NCBI GenBank assembly: GCA_025360085.1
Contig: JANYCW010000015.1
Location: forward strand, 1 to 48,640
DNA from: Actinomycetes bacterium
GTDB taxonomy: Bacteria; Actinomycetota; Actinomycetes; Nanopelagicales; Nanopelagicaceae
Direction of reading: 5' to 3'
Length of the DNA: 48,640 nucleotides
The notes beneath the pieces are model-generated. The model was given only the letters and a program-made list of their open reading frames with translations, made no database searches and was not told the origin of the DNA. Shown in pieces: positions 31,041 through 34,574 of the stretch. Each line of letters begins with the position of its first letter. Positions within the stretch are counted from its first letter, which is position 1. Position numbers and translations under genes: made by a program.

Positions 31041-31940
31041 TTAAACAATGCCCTGCTGCGAAGCCGGGACTCCTTCGACTGTAAGCGTGGCGGTCATTGG
31101 TGTGGTTCGTTTTACGATTGCGAGGGCAATAGTGCCAAGCTCGTGATGTCGCGCAACGGTGCCTATAAAACCAACCGTGGTACCTTCATTTTGAATGAGC
31201 GCACCTTTCGATGGAAATGCCACATCGCTGCCATCTAAGTGCAACATAACTAATCGCCGTGGTGGCTTCCCTAAGTTAAATATTTTAGCGACAGTTTCTT
31301 GGCCGCGGTAGCATCCCTTACTCATATGCACCGCACCATTTAAGACGCCGATTTCATTTGGCAAGGATTTATGATCTGTTTCAAATCCAATTCGCGGGCG
31401 ACCTGCAGCCACGCGTTCGGCATCTAAGGCCCAAGTGCCAACTTGTGTCGCAACTTGATTAAATGTTGAACTTATTTGCGTAATTTCAGCGCGAGGTACA
31501 AGTACAAACGGTCCACCTAAATCGTTTGTCAATCCCGGAGCCTTAAAAACTGCTAACTCATCAGATGCGTCGCGAACATCTACGCGAAGCATGAACTTCA
31601 TTTTTGTTAAATATGCAAGTAAGGCATCAGAATAACCTGGATCTAATATCAACCACGTTGTTGTAGCGTCATCAACAACATTGAATTGAAACTCAATGTG
31701 GCCTTGCGGATCTAAAATCATCGCCGCTTTCCAGACGTCAGGGCTTAAATCATTCAGAAACTGAGTTGTTAAATCATGCAGCCACTTCAAGCGGTCTTGA
31801 CCACTGACTGCAATAATTTTTAAATGTGAAAGATCGGCCCATGCCGAGCCTGCCTCTAAGGCGCGCGCCTCTTTTACAGGTTCGCCAAAGTGCCAGATTG
31901 CACCTTTATCGACCCCTTCTTCCACAATGACAGCGCTCAT
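31041..31940 (-). CDS. ygfZ: YgfZ / GcvT-like folate-binding protein
   Basis: About 299 aa. The YgfZ signature is MSKGCYRGQETVAKIFNLGKPPRRLV (K-G-C-Y-x-G-Q-E, about residue 205). The N-terminal half (LSHLKIIAVSGQDRLKWLHDLTTQFLNDL) is GcvT-like. YgfZ proteins use tetrahydrofolate and support maturation of certain Fe-S enzymes. ATG 31940 overlaps the fur stop as ATGA; the longer frame from 31955 is not needed. Confidence 0.92.
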   Translation of the reverse strand: MSAVIVEEGVDKGAIWHFGEPVKEARALEAGSAWADLSHLKIIAVSGQDRLKWLHDLTTQFLNDLSPDVWKAAMILDPQGHIEFQFNVVDDATTTWLILDPGYSDALLAYLTKMKFMLRVDVRDASDELAVFKAPGLTNDLGGPFVLVPRAEITQISSTFNQVATQVGTWALDAERVAAGRPRIGFETDHKSLPNEIGVLNGAVHMSKGCYRGQETVAKIFNLGKPPRRLVMLHLDGSDVAFPSKGALIQNEGTTVGFIGTVARHHELGTIALAIVKRTTPMTATLTVEGVPASQQGIV

Positions 31941-32341
31941 TGACAGGACGAACAAGTTCCATAGATTGCAAAGTGAGTGACATCGGTCTTAAAACCATAA
32001 TCATCTGCGAGGGAGTTAACGAAGTTAGCGGCAACATCAATTGGCGCGTCACCGACTGATCCGCACTTTCCACACACTAAGTGCAAGTGAGTCAGGACTT
32101 GCGCCGCGTGATAAGTAGCGCCGCCGTGACCTAAATGTGTGTGTACAACTAATCCAACGTTTTCAAGTGTTTCAAGGTTGCGATACACCGTTGAAAGATT
32201 GATCCCTGGGTGGGTAAGGCGCACTTTTTCTGCAATCTCCTCAGGGGTTGAATGCCCTAAATCACGAACGGCAGCTAAAACGAGTTCGCGTTGAGGGGTT
32301 AGCCGCAACCCCTTTTCATGAAGTTCGTGTTTTTTGACCAT
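31937..32341 (-). CDS. Fur-family metalloregulator
   Basis: 134 aa. Winged-helix DNA-binding domain (GLRLTPQRELVLAAV...STVYRNLETLENVGLV, residues 11-66) and a dimerisation domain with the metal site HLHLVCGKCG. Structural-zinc cysteines are Cys90, Cys93, Cys130 and Cys133. Repressor subtype (Zur, Nur, PerR-like) cannot be told safely. In other actinobacteria a Fur-type gene likewise neighbours ygfZ and the nitrobindin gene. It overlaps DUF4395 by 26 bp at its start. Confidence 0.93.
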   Translation of the reverse strand: MVKKHELHEKGLRLTPQRELVLAAVRDLGHSTPEEIAEKVRLTHPGINLSTVYRNLETLENVGLVVHTHLGHGGATYHAAQVLTHLHLVCGKCGSVGDAPIDVAANFVNSLADDYGFKTDVTHFAIYGTCSSCQ

Positions 32342-32783
32342 ATGGCAATCTTAGGCGAAGAAGCAGTACATACAGTTCGCAGCCAAGGCAGAAGTTAAAT
32401 ACCGCATTCAAGAAGGCCGCCGCTAAGGCAAAACTCACGGCAACCATGAATATAGGCTCAATACCAATGGTGTTTCCTGCAATTGCTGCCAAAGCAAAAA
32501 GCAAGCCCACACTTTGAGCAAATTGCGGTGGGCGAACATCCTCCATGTTTGCGGTGCTCTTAAGTCGAGGTCTAATAAATTTTCGAAATATAAAGGCATA
32601 TGGTGTGAACTGTGGTCCTTTAATTGCACCAATGGCAAAGATAACTGCTTGAGCAATCACAATCCAGATATTAGAGGTTACAAGCGCGAACGCTAATACG
32701 ATAGTGGTCAAGCTGGCCGCAAAGCGAGGCCCTCGTGCATCAATTGAATCAACGGCTATTTCTCTTGCTAAAACTTTAGTCAT
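32316..32783 (-). CDS. DUF4395 membrane protein
   Basis: 155 aa, four hydrophobic segments. ARGPRFAASLTTIVLAFAL, GPQFTPYAFIFRKFIRPRL and the C-terminal NFCLGCELY are DUF4395 hallmarks; the CLGC pair may be redox active. DUF4395 genes in actinobacteria usually follow a thioredoxin-like gene and precede sulfurtransferase genes; here only the thioredoxin-like gene is kept. AAAGGA lies about 9 nt before ATG 32783. A short leader-peptide gene sits 50 nt upstream. Confidence 0.88.
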   Translation of the reverse strand: MTKVLAREIAVDSIDARGPRFAASLTTIVLAFALVTSNIWIVIAQAVIFAIGAIKGPQFTPYAFIFRKFIRPRLKSTANMEDVRPPQFAQSVGLLFALAAIAGNTIGIEPIFMVAVSFALAAAFLNAVFNFCLGCELYVLLLRLRLPYGQKTRTS

Positions 32784-32833
32784 GAACTATTCCTTTGTTA
32801 GTTGAATGGATAATTGTTTTTAAATTACAACAA

Positions 32834-32911
32834 TTACATTCGACACAAAGAACCAGCAAGGCGCCCGAAATCAATTACTCGGCGCTTAGTGAAATTGCTA
32901 GCGATAGACAT
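32834..32911 (-). CDS. 25-residue leader peptide of the actinobacterial sulfur-gene type
   Basis: ATG 32911 to TAA 32834 encodes MSIASNF followed by TKRRVIDFGRLAGSLCRM. The string RR-x-[VI]-D-[LF]-x-R-[LV]-[AS]-x-x-[LI]-C-R is the pattern I recall for the short ORFs called putative leader peptide upstream of sulfur-metabolism and thioredoxin/DUF4395 genes in Streptomyces and relatives; I could not run a search. Cys23 near the stop fits a cysteine-sensing attenuator. A TAGAAT hexamer ends 7 nt before the ATG. It occupies the gap between the thioredoxin-like and DUF4395 genes, 50 nt before the latter. Confidence 0.75.
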   Translation of the reverse strand: MSIASNFTKRRVIDFGRLAGSLCRM

Positions 32912-32918
32912 GATATGA

Positions 32919-32924
32919 ATTCTA
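32919..32924 (-). promoter_or_regulatory. -10 element of the leader peptide / DUF4395 transcript
   Basis: Minus-strand TAGAAT ends 7 nt before ATG 32911, giving DUF4395, fur and ygfZ a promoter separate from the thioredoxin gene. Confidence 0.6.
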
Positions 32925-32955
32925 AGGCGTTAAACTTGTTAAAGCGAGTTGCGAA

Positions 32956-33366
32956 CTATTCGCGAATAGCTTCAAGTGCAGAGATGACCTGTTCACGCTT
33001 TGGTGCCCCAACCGCTCGACCCACTTCTCGCCCATACGAATCCAAAATTAACGTCGTTGGAGTGCTCAAAATATTTAACTCTCGCACAAGCTCTAACTGC
33101 GACTCGGCATCAACTTCAACATGGACGACACCGTTTAAACCCATCACTATGTTCTCGAGTAAGACACGTGTTGCTCGACATGGAGTACAAAATGCCGATG
33201 AAAACTGCACCAATGTTGCCCGAGACCCCAACGGCGCACCAATCATCAGCTCTGTTATAAATGCTTGCCCCGATTTTGCTTTTACGCTACCGCGCGAGCG
33301 CTGGTACCAGAGGCCATAGACGCTTGCTAGCCCCAAAACAAGGGCGAGTGGTAGGAATGAATTCAC
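32956..33366 (-). CDS. Membrane-anchored thioredoxin-like protein
   Basis: One N-terminal hydrophobic segment (FLPLALVLGLASVYGLWY) anchors a thioredoxin domain with the redox motif CTPC (QFSSAFCTPCRATRVLL) and the cis-proline STPTTLIL. It probably reduces or exchanges disulfides near the membrane, perhaps with the CLGC pair of DUF4395. Start uncertain: the TTG at 33384 would share bases with the divergent glnR ATG, so I prefer GTG 33366, giving about 136 aa. Confidence 0.82.
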   Translation of the reverse strand: MNSFLPLALVLGLASVYGLWYQRSRGSVKAKSGQAFITELMIGAPLGSRATLVQFSSAFCTPCRATRVLLENIVMGLNGVVHVEVDAESQLELVRELNILSTPTTLILDSYGREVGRAVGAPKREQVISALEAIRE

Positions 33367-33371
33367 AAAGG

Positions 33372-33377
33372 TAGTCT
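33372..33377 (+). promoter_or_regulatory. -10 element of glnR (leaderless)
   Basis: TAGTCT ends 6 nt before ATG 33384, within the very short gap to the divergent thioredoxin-like gene. Confidence 0.6.
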
Positions 33378-33383
33378 GTACCA

Positions 33384-34097
33384 ATGGCCAGAGTGTTGCT
33401 ACTTACACATACATCTGGTGCCAGCGCGGAGGTTTTACCCGCACTTGGTTTACTAGCCCACCATGTTCGTATACTGCCAGCCGAAGCTAGCGTTCTCGTA
33501 GACGTTCCAGATGTTGACGTAATCCTGCTCGATGCACGCCGCGATCTTCCGGGGGCAAAATCTCTTGCACGCTTACTAACTACTACTGGAGTTGGATGTC
33601 CAATTATCGCCATTGCCACTGAGGGTGGGTTATCTGCCGTGAGTGCCGAATGGGGAATCGATGATGTCATGCTCGATACGTCGGGACCGGCAGAAGTCGA
33701 TGCACGTGTGCGCATAGTCGTCGGAAAATACAGTGCGGTAATCGCACAGCGCAATCCGCACTCAGGAGAGATTCGAACCGGTGATGTAGTTATCGATGAG
33801 TCAAGTTATACCGCGCGACTTAAGGGCAATGTCTTAGATTTAACTTTTAAAGAGTTTGAACTTCTTAAATATTTGGCGCAACATCCAGGACGAGTGTTTA
33901 CTCGGGCCCAACTGTTGCAAGAGATTTGGGGTTATGACTACTTTGGGGGCACACGTACCGTCGATGTCCATATCCGCCGTTTGCGTTCAAAACTTGGTCC
34001 CGAATTCGAATCGATCATCGGGACTGTACGTAACGTCGGCTATCGATTTACAATGCCAAGCGGTGGTAACGAAGGCGCCATTAACGAGCGCGTTTGA
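33384..34097 (+). CDS. glnR: GlnR-type nitrogen response regulator
   Basis: 237 aa OmpR-family regulator controlling nitrogen-assimilation genes in actinobacteria. The atypical receiver ([22 protein letters not shown]...[36 protein letters not shown]) closely follows S. coelicolor GlnR, an orphan regulator without a partner kinase. The winged-helix effector is [20 protein letters not shown]...[16 protein letters not shown]...[11 protein letters not shown]. mshD follows after 3 bp, as in mycobacteria (Rv0818-Rv0819). Confidence 0.95.
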
Positions 34098-34100
34098 GCA

Positions 34101-34574
34101 ATGCGTCACATTTTAAAAATTCACCGCTCTTTACAGGGGACAATTCCAGATACCGATCACGGTTTTACAATCGAAAGCTTTAATCCAGCGGTACATAAGC
34201 AGGCATGGCTAAACCTGAATAATAAAGTATTTGTTAACCATCCCGATCAAGGTAATTGGGCCATGGAGGATCTTGAAAACCGGATGGGCGAACCTTGGTT
34301 TGATTCGGCTGGCTTCTTTCTCGCCATAGACAAGGGGGCGATTGTAGGTACCTGTTGGAGCAAAATTCACCATGATTTAGTGCATCAAGCACCGGTTGGC
34401 GAGCTCTATGTAGTTGGAGTTGATCCAGAGTACATGGGTCACGGAATTGGCCGTGCAGTTTCGATTGCGGCTATGAATTATTTCTTTACCAAAGGCATTA
34501 AGGATGTGATGTTGTACGTCGATGCCGATAATAAAAAAGGCTTAAAACTCTACGAGTCTCTGGGATTTAATTAA
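34101..34574 (+). CDS. mshD: Mycothiol synthase, single GNAT domain only
   Basis: Last step of mycothiol synthesis: acetylates Cys-GlcN-Ins with acetyl-CoA. The 157 residues correspond to the C-terminal, catalytic half of the usual ~300-aa two-GNAT MshD: HRSLQG linker, AWLNLNNKVFVNHPDQGNWAMEDL, EPWFDSAGFFLA, the acetyl-CoA loop VVGVDPEYMGHGIGRAVS, and LYVDADNKKGLKLYESLGF. The N-terminal GNAT domain is absent and the chain stops right after LGFN, about ten residues earlier than relatives. Placement behind glnR supports identity. Whether it is active is unproved. Confidence 0.85.
   Translation: MRHILKIHRSLQGTIPDTDHGFTIESFNPAVHKQAWLNLNNKVFVNHPDQGNWAMEDLENRMGEPWFDSAGFFLAIDKGAIVGTCWSKIHHDLVHQAPVGELYVVGVDPEYMGHGIGRAVSIAAMNYFFTKGIKDVMLYVDADNKKGLKLYESLGFN

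Follow-up and report, generated by a model that had tools for sequence, protein, structure and literature searches.

Does the short open reading frame (ORF) between a thioredoxin-like gene and a DUF4395 gene in this Nanopelagicaceae genome encode a working leader peptide, and if so, which genes would it control and how? The window, by which we mean the whole 48,640-nucleotide stretch analyzed, carries in this gap a 25-codon ORF with its own -10 box, both as described in the initial annotation, whose upper bound of 32924 takes in the box, followed by a DUF4395-regulator-YgfZ unit of overlapping genes (Table 1). The locus is flanked on its other side by divergent GlnR-like and MshD-like genes, and similar neighbors surround cysA2-sseC2 in Mycobacterium tuberculosis. 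The MshD-like mycothiol synthase (window 34101-34574) was matched by its family profile in the C-terminal half only (128-286 of 294). No Rfam family was found at the leader site, the sole match over threshold in the window being a tRNA.

Table 1. Features of the leader locus, in window coordinates.
Feature	Position	Strand	Basis
YgfZ/CAF17-like protein gene, overlapping the regulator gene	31041..31943	-	TIGR03317, 1e-24
Fur-family regulator gene	31937..32341	-	closest solved relative S. coelicolor Nur (3eyy)
DUF4395 protein gene, first downstream of the leader	32316..32783	-	Pfam PF14340, 3.2e-40
Shine-Dalgarno AAAGGA of DUF4395, paired in predicted fold	32791..32796	-	sequence and fold
Stop-spanning stem-loop, 32829-32836 with 32811-32818	32811..32836	-	predicted fold; compensatory changes
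Leader ORF, 25 codons, MSIASNFTKRRVIDFGRLAGSLCRM	32834..32911	-	ORF translation, NCBIfam match, conservation
Predicted helix arm GUCGAAU over Cys/Arg codons, pairing with 32801-32807	32838..32844	-	predicted fold; compensatory changes also in another clade
Cys codon 23 (TGT) of the leader	32843..32845	-	Cys in 53/53 distinct cores, TGT in 52/53
Predicted anti-Shine-Dalgarno arm UUCUUUGU inside the leader, pairing with 32791-32798	32845..32852	-	predicted fold; helix without two-sided changes
Internal hairpin of the leader, formed by 32880-32885 and 32861-32867, pairing KRR with FGR codons	32861..32885	-	RNAalifold, conserved
-10 box TAGAAT, 7 nt before the leader ATG	32919..32924	-	sequence; conserved in relatives
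Conserved 20-bp element, spanning the stop codon of the thioredoxin-like gene	32945..32964	-	relatives
Palindrome CGCGAATAGTTCGCA within the 20-bp element, resembling the Nur box	32950-32964	-	published consensus
Thioredoxin-like gene, upstream of the leader promoter	32956..33384	-	Pfam PF00085, 4.7e-9

Conservation was followed in a genus and family genome set and in a set of named relatives (the best 80 of 280), mostly metagenome-assembled genomes (MAGs) of Candidatus Planktophila and uncultured actinobacteria (acI); the two sets share organisms and are not independent. Because the motif used for leader detection itself requires RR and D/N, the search was repeated on spacing alone, taking a start codon 31-34 nt past the promoter box which was not the DUF4395 start and ignoring the peptide. 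Among the named relatives 53 ORFs, 23-29 codons long and lying before DUF4395, were picked in this way; every one contained RRxxD and a Cys within the last eight residues, and all 53 had been found by the motif search. This bears out the proposed conservation of RR-x-x-D; as to the proposed C-R pair, Cys was present in all 53 but an Arg directly followed the last Cys in 37/53. The window peptide ends in SLCRM*, so that its single Cys lies near the end as had been noted, although two codons (Arg, Met) separate it from the stop.

Differences among 53 distinct 16-codon cores (motif-found, our own included) were 0.17/0.06/0.47 at codon positions 1/2/3, and nonsynonymous single-base codon differences amounted to 0.08 of uniform expectation, a crude pairwise figure which ignores relatedness. 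Substitutions are biased to synonymous sites, as the selection surmised in the initial annotation would have it. The Cys codon was TGT in 52/53 cores compared with 51 TGT : 54 TGC in the genes of the window, a count which is descriptive only as the sequences are related, and the N-termini of the peptides varied between lineages. A short ORF might arise by chance, and ORFs of 20 aa or longer that overlap the surrounding 7 kb number 126; this explanation is contradicted by the codon pattern and by RRxxD and Cys in 53/53 spacing-picked ORFs, and with the family match given below we regard its probability as negligible.

The leader is patchily distributed. In the genus set of 41 genomes (own included, many incomplete) DUF4395 was matched in 23, with a leader ORF containing the KRR core in 14 of them (own included) and absent in 9. 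The 80 named relatives comprised 54 with a leader and a callable DUF4395 start, 22 without leader and 4 which were not assessable, while a count by motif alone, for which no callable DUF4395 start was required, gave 56/80. The ORF is conserved among close relatives, as anticipated, but is absent from 22/76 assessable loci. Presence and absence changed at least eight times on a tree of 77 DUF4395 proteins (54 with leader, 23 without, including L245, which was not assessable in the spacing count), a rough number as the tree had few columns. Leaderless loci lack the leader's spacer as well. Lineages with and without the leader are natural pairs for testing its role. At the Planktophila lacus MMS-21-148 locus (L186, 2415-2490) the leader ORF and pairing arm are gone and the promoter and Shine-Dalgarno (SD) site are kept; the closely related L185 has kept the leader. 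We also observed acI-like loci in public MAGs (L188, L203, L226, L255) whose titles name Bifidobacterium breve or Streptomyces griseus; these labels look wrong.

The leader matched NCBIfam leader_Ms5788A (NF042933) with E=1.1e-5 and 25 bits, below the 45-bit cut-off, and NF042934 cis_reg_atten with E=0.0047 and 16.6 bits, below the 27-bit cut-off. The first match agrees with the earlier view that its core is of the actinobacterial sulfur leader-peptide type. NF042933 exceeded its cut-off in 0/151 family genomes and 18/148 class genomes; at E<=0.01 it matched 118/148 class genomes and 1/14 controls. At E<=1 it was noisy, matching 7/14 control genomes, and for this reason we counted only matches whose ORF and neighboring gene were read. 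Of 57 family matches chosen from those listed, two (L049, L077) were dropped, and the remaining 55, with a recognized neighbor, comprised 36 leaders before DUF4395, 10 before cysK and 9 before a gene for a rhodanese-domain protein, the rhodanese assignment including a Pfam run on one. At class level the leader ORF was found in 28 of the best 30 loci, preceding sulfurtransferase or DUF4395 genes wherever the downstream gene was recognizable by eye.

Conservation at the peptide level would also be expected of a small protein acting in trans. All 55 family leaders, however, precede cysK, DUF4395 or rhodanese genes, the N-termini differ by lineage and the leader is lost along with its spacer, which makes such a role highly improbable. 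We conclude that the leader ORF is real, conserved and selected, and is a divergent relative of the actinobacterial cysteine leader peptides; by score it is not a formal member of NF042933, and the likeliest reading is that it functions like one.

A second leader, MKSIITWFFTRNRIVDFCRSTSCSC (G000:C33:27786-27863, L045), lies before cysK (TIGR01139, 9e-129) in the same genome, behind the same promoter box. It matched NF042933 at E=0.0069 and contains three non-contiguous Cys residues; most cysK leaders have several Cys at the end. The initial annotation mentioned neither this second leader nor the Nur-box-like palindrome described below.

Mycobacterial Cys-rich leader sORFs were reportedly treated by Canestrari in 2020. 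In mycobacteria, leaderless poly-Cys sORFs precede cysA2 (Shell 2015, PMC4633059), and mycobacterial Cys leaders are described as attenuating translation of downstream genes in PMC13236596 and PMC9031893. The acI leader is like the mycobacterial Ms5788A family in its short ORF, apparent leaderless-type start, KRRxxD core and Cys near the end, and it appears to head a related sulfurtransferase/DUF4395 operon. It differs in having a single Cys where mycobacterial leaders carry a poly-Cys run, in scoring below the family cut-off, in the Nur-box-like palindrome at the promoter, and in that the sulfurtransferase is missing from the operon in this genome. The RRxxD...C core is likewise common to the 'putative leader peptide' family NF042934, for which the acI leader is under the cut-off. 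Streptomyces lividans, too, is reported to have leader ORFs in front of amino-acid genes, and the transcripts of several are leaderless; the eight leaders considered (PMC8079986) are for Leu, Trp, Ala, Ile, Met and Thr, with none for Cys, and they are discussed there as transcription attenuators, terminators having been found for some only.

The position of the promoter relative to the first start codon was nearly fixed. A T at -7 was present in 54/54 leader loci and T/T/T/A at -14 to -11 in 78-94%; a search of the region gave no consensus sigma-70 promoter. The distance from the 20-bp element (loose pattern) to the leader ATG was 32 nt in 46/54 and 33 nt in 7/54 loci, with one of the 54 unmatched; in the window the element ends 33 nt and the palindrome 38 nt before the leader start. 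In leaderless loci it was the DUF4395 ATG which stood 32 nt after the element (20/22), the other two (L186, L234) keeping a short 5' UTR. This rigid spacing to the first ATG, whichever ORF comes first, points to a transcription start at or near that ATG, and with the -10 box 7 nt before the ATG the leader mRNA is probably leaderless.

The 20-bp element contains the palindrome TGCRA-N5-TYGCA. An 11-bp direct repeat bound by the neighboring GlnR had been our first idea, and was dropped once the palindrome and its Nur match appeared. The proposed Nur box is tTGCaa-N5-ttGCAA according to PMC3919588, and this resemblance suggests that the palindrome is a candidate Nur site. Strong forms of the box in our own genome were located in front of both leaders (this one and that of cysK) and between NicO, a nickel transporter gene, and a divergent gene with a DMFA2_C domain (G000:C34:61515-61534; L101, L161), where there is no leader. 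Many weaker matches of the short box pattern fell inside genes, and one exact match (G000:C16:6789) was set aside as it lies inside an ORF (L085:1091-1741) and is probably due to chance.

Across 61 family genomes the 20-mer gave 103 strand-matches in 51 genomes, a few near-perfect palindromes being counted on both strands, compared with 7 for the reversed control. As the pattern was derived from the DUF4395 and cysK sites, independent support comes only from NicO and other genes. In 40 chosen stretches, nearly all taken from 20-mer matches, the genes recognized behind the box were cysK, DUF4395, NicO, the DMFA2_C gene, mshA and a sulfhydrylase gene, and several sites had no clear gene. The box preceded NicO in six relatives (Pfam 6/6) and the DMFA2_C gene in three (3/3), and in one relative each mshA (L154 244-1619; TIGR03449 8e-168, over cut-off) and an O-acetylhomoserine/O-acetylserine sulfhydrylase gene (L172; NF005872, over cut-off). 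The box of the L154 mshA (mycothiol glycosyltransferase) gene is about 3.4 kb from a leader box on the same contig, and sites of similar spacing were seen in G091 and G101.

Box and leader do not always occur together. The box stood 31-33 nt before the ATG of cysK leaders in 10/10, and in four loci (L150, L152, L171, L177) cysK itself followed about 32 nt behind the box without any leader. No box was seen by eye at the corresponding place before the nine rhodanese-gene leaders read, so that leader and box are separable. At class level a loose TGC-N9-GCA was present upstream in 3 of the loci (28 with ORF among the best 30), and in this sample leader and box together therefore seem to be a peculiarity of the acI side.

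Among solved structures the operon's Fur protein was nearest to 3eyy (1e-43; next 2.3e-15), identified in PMC7055735 as Streptomyces coelicolor Nur, a nickel-responsive Fur-family repressor. Nur relatives (E<=1e-25) were present in 57/61 family genomes and Ni-SOD in 40/41 genus genomes. What we take to be the nickel-site histidines of 3eyy are H33, H86, H88 and H90; three of the four are conserved in our regulator, with Leu at the H86 position. The relative L324 reads the same at that position as the window regulator (31937-32341). Likeness to S. coelicolor Nur thus extends from the closest solved structure to a matching palindrome (PMC3919588, PMC7055735), a nickel transporter among the putative targets and the presence of Ni-SOD in this genome, whereas the replaced histidine, and putative acI targets which include cysK and DUF4395 combined with Cys leaders, set the acI regulator apart.

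Alternatively, the palindrome might be bound by a different regulator, or serve these genes as a common upstream promoter element. Conservation continues past the palindrome into the tail GCAANTNG, and the distance to the start is tightly kept. In the best 30 nur loci of the genus, moreover, DUF4395 lay within 900 nt upstream in 18, and the search for a box before nur was negative in the other 12, so that autoregulation is not general. Against this stand the match to the published consensus, the box before NicO in our own genome and six relatives, the wide occurrence of a Nur relative and the separability of box from leader, and we hold a site unrelated to Nur to be rather unlikely. Among open-licence papers searched by title and opening of the abstract, none joined Nur with cysK or Cys leaders, which is weak evidence of novelty.

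The downstream unit with Fur and YgfZ named in the initial annotation is present in the window, but the Fur protein is Nur-like and the pair is a putative lineage-specific target of the leader. In two relatives examined, a sulfurtransferase and DUF1416 lie in between: G040 has box-DUF4395-rhodanese sulfurtransferase-DUF1416-nur without a leader (Pfam run on the G040 copies), and G036, by reading, has leader-DUF4395-sulfurtransferase-DUF1416-nur. Since DUF4395 overlaps the regulator gene in the window, both intervening genes are absent from the operon here; a rhodanese query against our own genome gave no match, the query being the secreted form, by which a diverged one could be missed. The regulator and YgfZ appear to have come directly under the leader by loss of the sulfurtransferase and DUF1416.

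The RNA between leader and DUF4395 was predicted to be structured. For the stretch taken from the window the predicted free energy was -39 kcal/mol (z = -2.60), and in this fold the Ser-Leu-Cys codons pair with AAAGGA while a second stem crosses the stop codon. When this structure was applied to 21 chosen sequences (window plus 20 relatives), 85.7% of cells could pair compared with 33-50% when it was slid, a comparison which favors the tested structure as it came from one of the 21. Two-sided changes were found in 11 cells, mainly in the stop-spanning stem (0/500 shuffles as high), and further pair types at a level reached by 35/500 shuffles; the SD-proximal helix had no two-sided changes in the 21 sequences. 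In a separate clade of 10 the helix over the Cys codon was kept, two of its pairs showing compensatory changes. RNAalifold on the 21-sequence set predicted the internal hairpin only and not the SD helix, and no clear SD pairing was seen in the cysK leaders. When leader and spacer partners were swapped the value shifted modestly, from -15.9 for own partners to -15.0 (sd 0.34), and it was -14.0 with shuffled leaders; against the spacers of unlike leaders the own spacer was beaten by 23% on average. Simulated masking by a ribosome gave mean SD accessibilities of 0.41 free, 0.42 stalled and 0.44 at the stop (n = 55), no rise which would support release of the SD, and in the window itself accessibility went down from 0.57 free to 0.44 stalled. 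Structure in the leader-spacer region is supported by these comparisons, while the switching step is taken by analogy from mycobacterial Cys leaders.

For the form of attenuation, which the initial annotation had proposed to act through cysteine or sulfur supply, the RNA evidence leans to SD sequestration. A terminator hairpin as in classical amino-acid leaders would be in keeping with a leader plus hairpins in the gap. No terminator-like site was found between leader and DUF4395, however (two were found inside DUF4395), and the predicted hairpin includes the SD site and is not followed by a U run; we rejected terminator-based attenuation as very unlikely. A nascent-chain arrest peptide, in which TKRRxxDxGR is read in the ribosome tunnel and sets the stall, Cys being merely the last residue sensed, is a more serious alternative. 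Residues are kept while synonymous codons vary (Thr in 53/53 cores, spelled by 4 codons), which counting of codons alone would not need, and the RRxxD core is common to leaders of other Actinobacteria. The internal RNA hairpin can explain part of the KRR/GR conservation, and the genes behind the leaders fit cysteine supply, and we consider arrest unlikely.

We therefore favor, with a probability of roughly two in three, a cysteine-sensing cis-regulatory small ORF in which translational attenuation is relieved by cysteine shortage, combined with a Nur-like transcription layer. Transcription would start at or next to the leader ATG, as the -10 position implies, and ribosomes would load on the leaderless mRNA. 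As long as Cys-tRNA is plentiful, the ribosome would pass the Cys codon and terminate, and the leader end would fold onto the spacer and hide the DUF4395 SD; DUF4395, and with it the overlapping regulator and ygfZ genes, would then be translated less. With scarce Cys-tRNA the ribosome would wait at the Cys codon and cover the pairing arm, and the SD would stay open. In the second layer a Nur-like Fur-family repressor, in this genome a product of the same operon, would bind the palindrome before the start. The same two-layer arrangement would recur before cysK, and the box without a leader before the nickel transporter.

New here are the shared Nur-like box, the cysK twin leader and the way in which the leader, like a cassette, is missing from some relatives. 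The four acI genomes of PMC5301498 lack assimilatory sulfate reduction. In a wider reading, to which we give about even odds, thiol supply and nickel homeostasis are wired together in acI: a Nur-type repressor would act over NicO, cysK, the DUF4395 operon and, in some lineages, mycothiol synthesis, and cysK and DUF4395 would carry in addition a cysteine-sensing translational gate which is a removable cassette. With this second gate, expression of the cysK and DUF4395 units would require agreement of the metal signal with a low cysteine level. In lineages which drop the cassette, the downstream gene would take over the unchanged start point and be leaderless itself. If the wider reading is true, lake actinobacteria would combine, within a single short promoter, a nickel-type switch with a gauge of cysteine, and streamlined genomes would retain such regulators.
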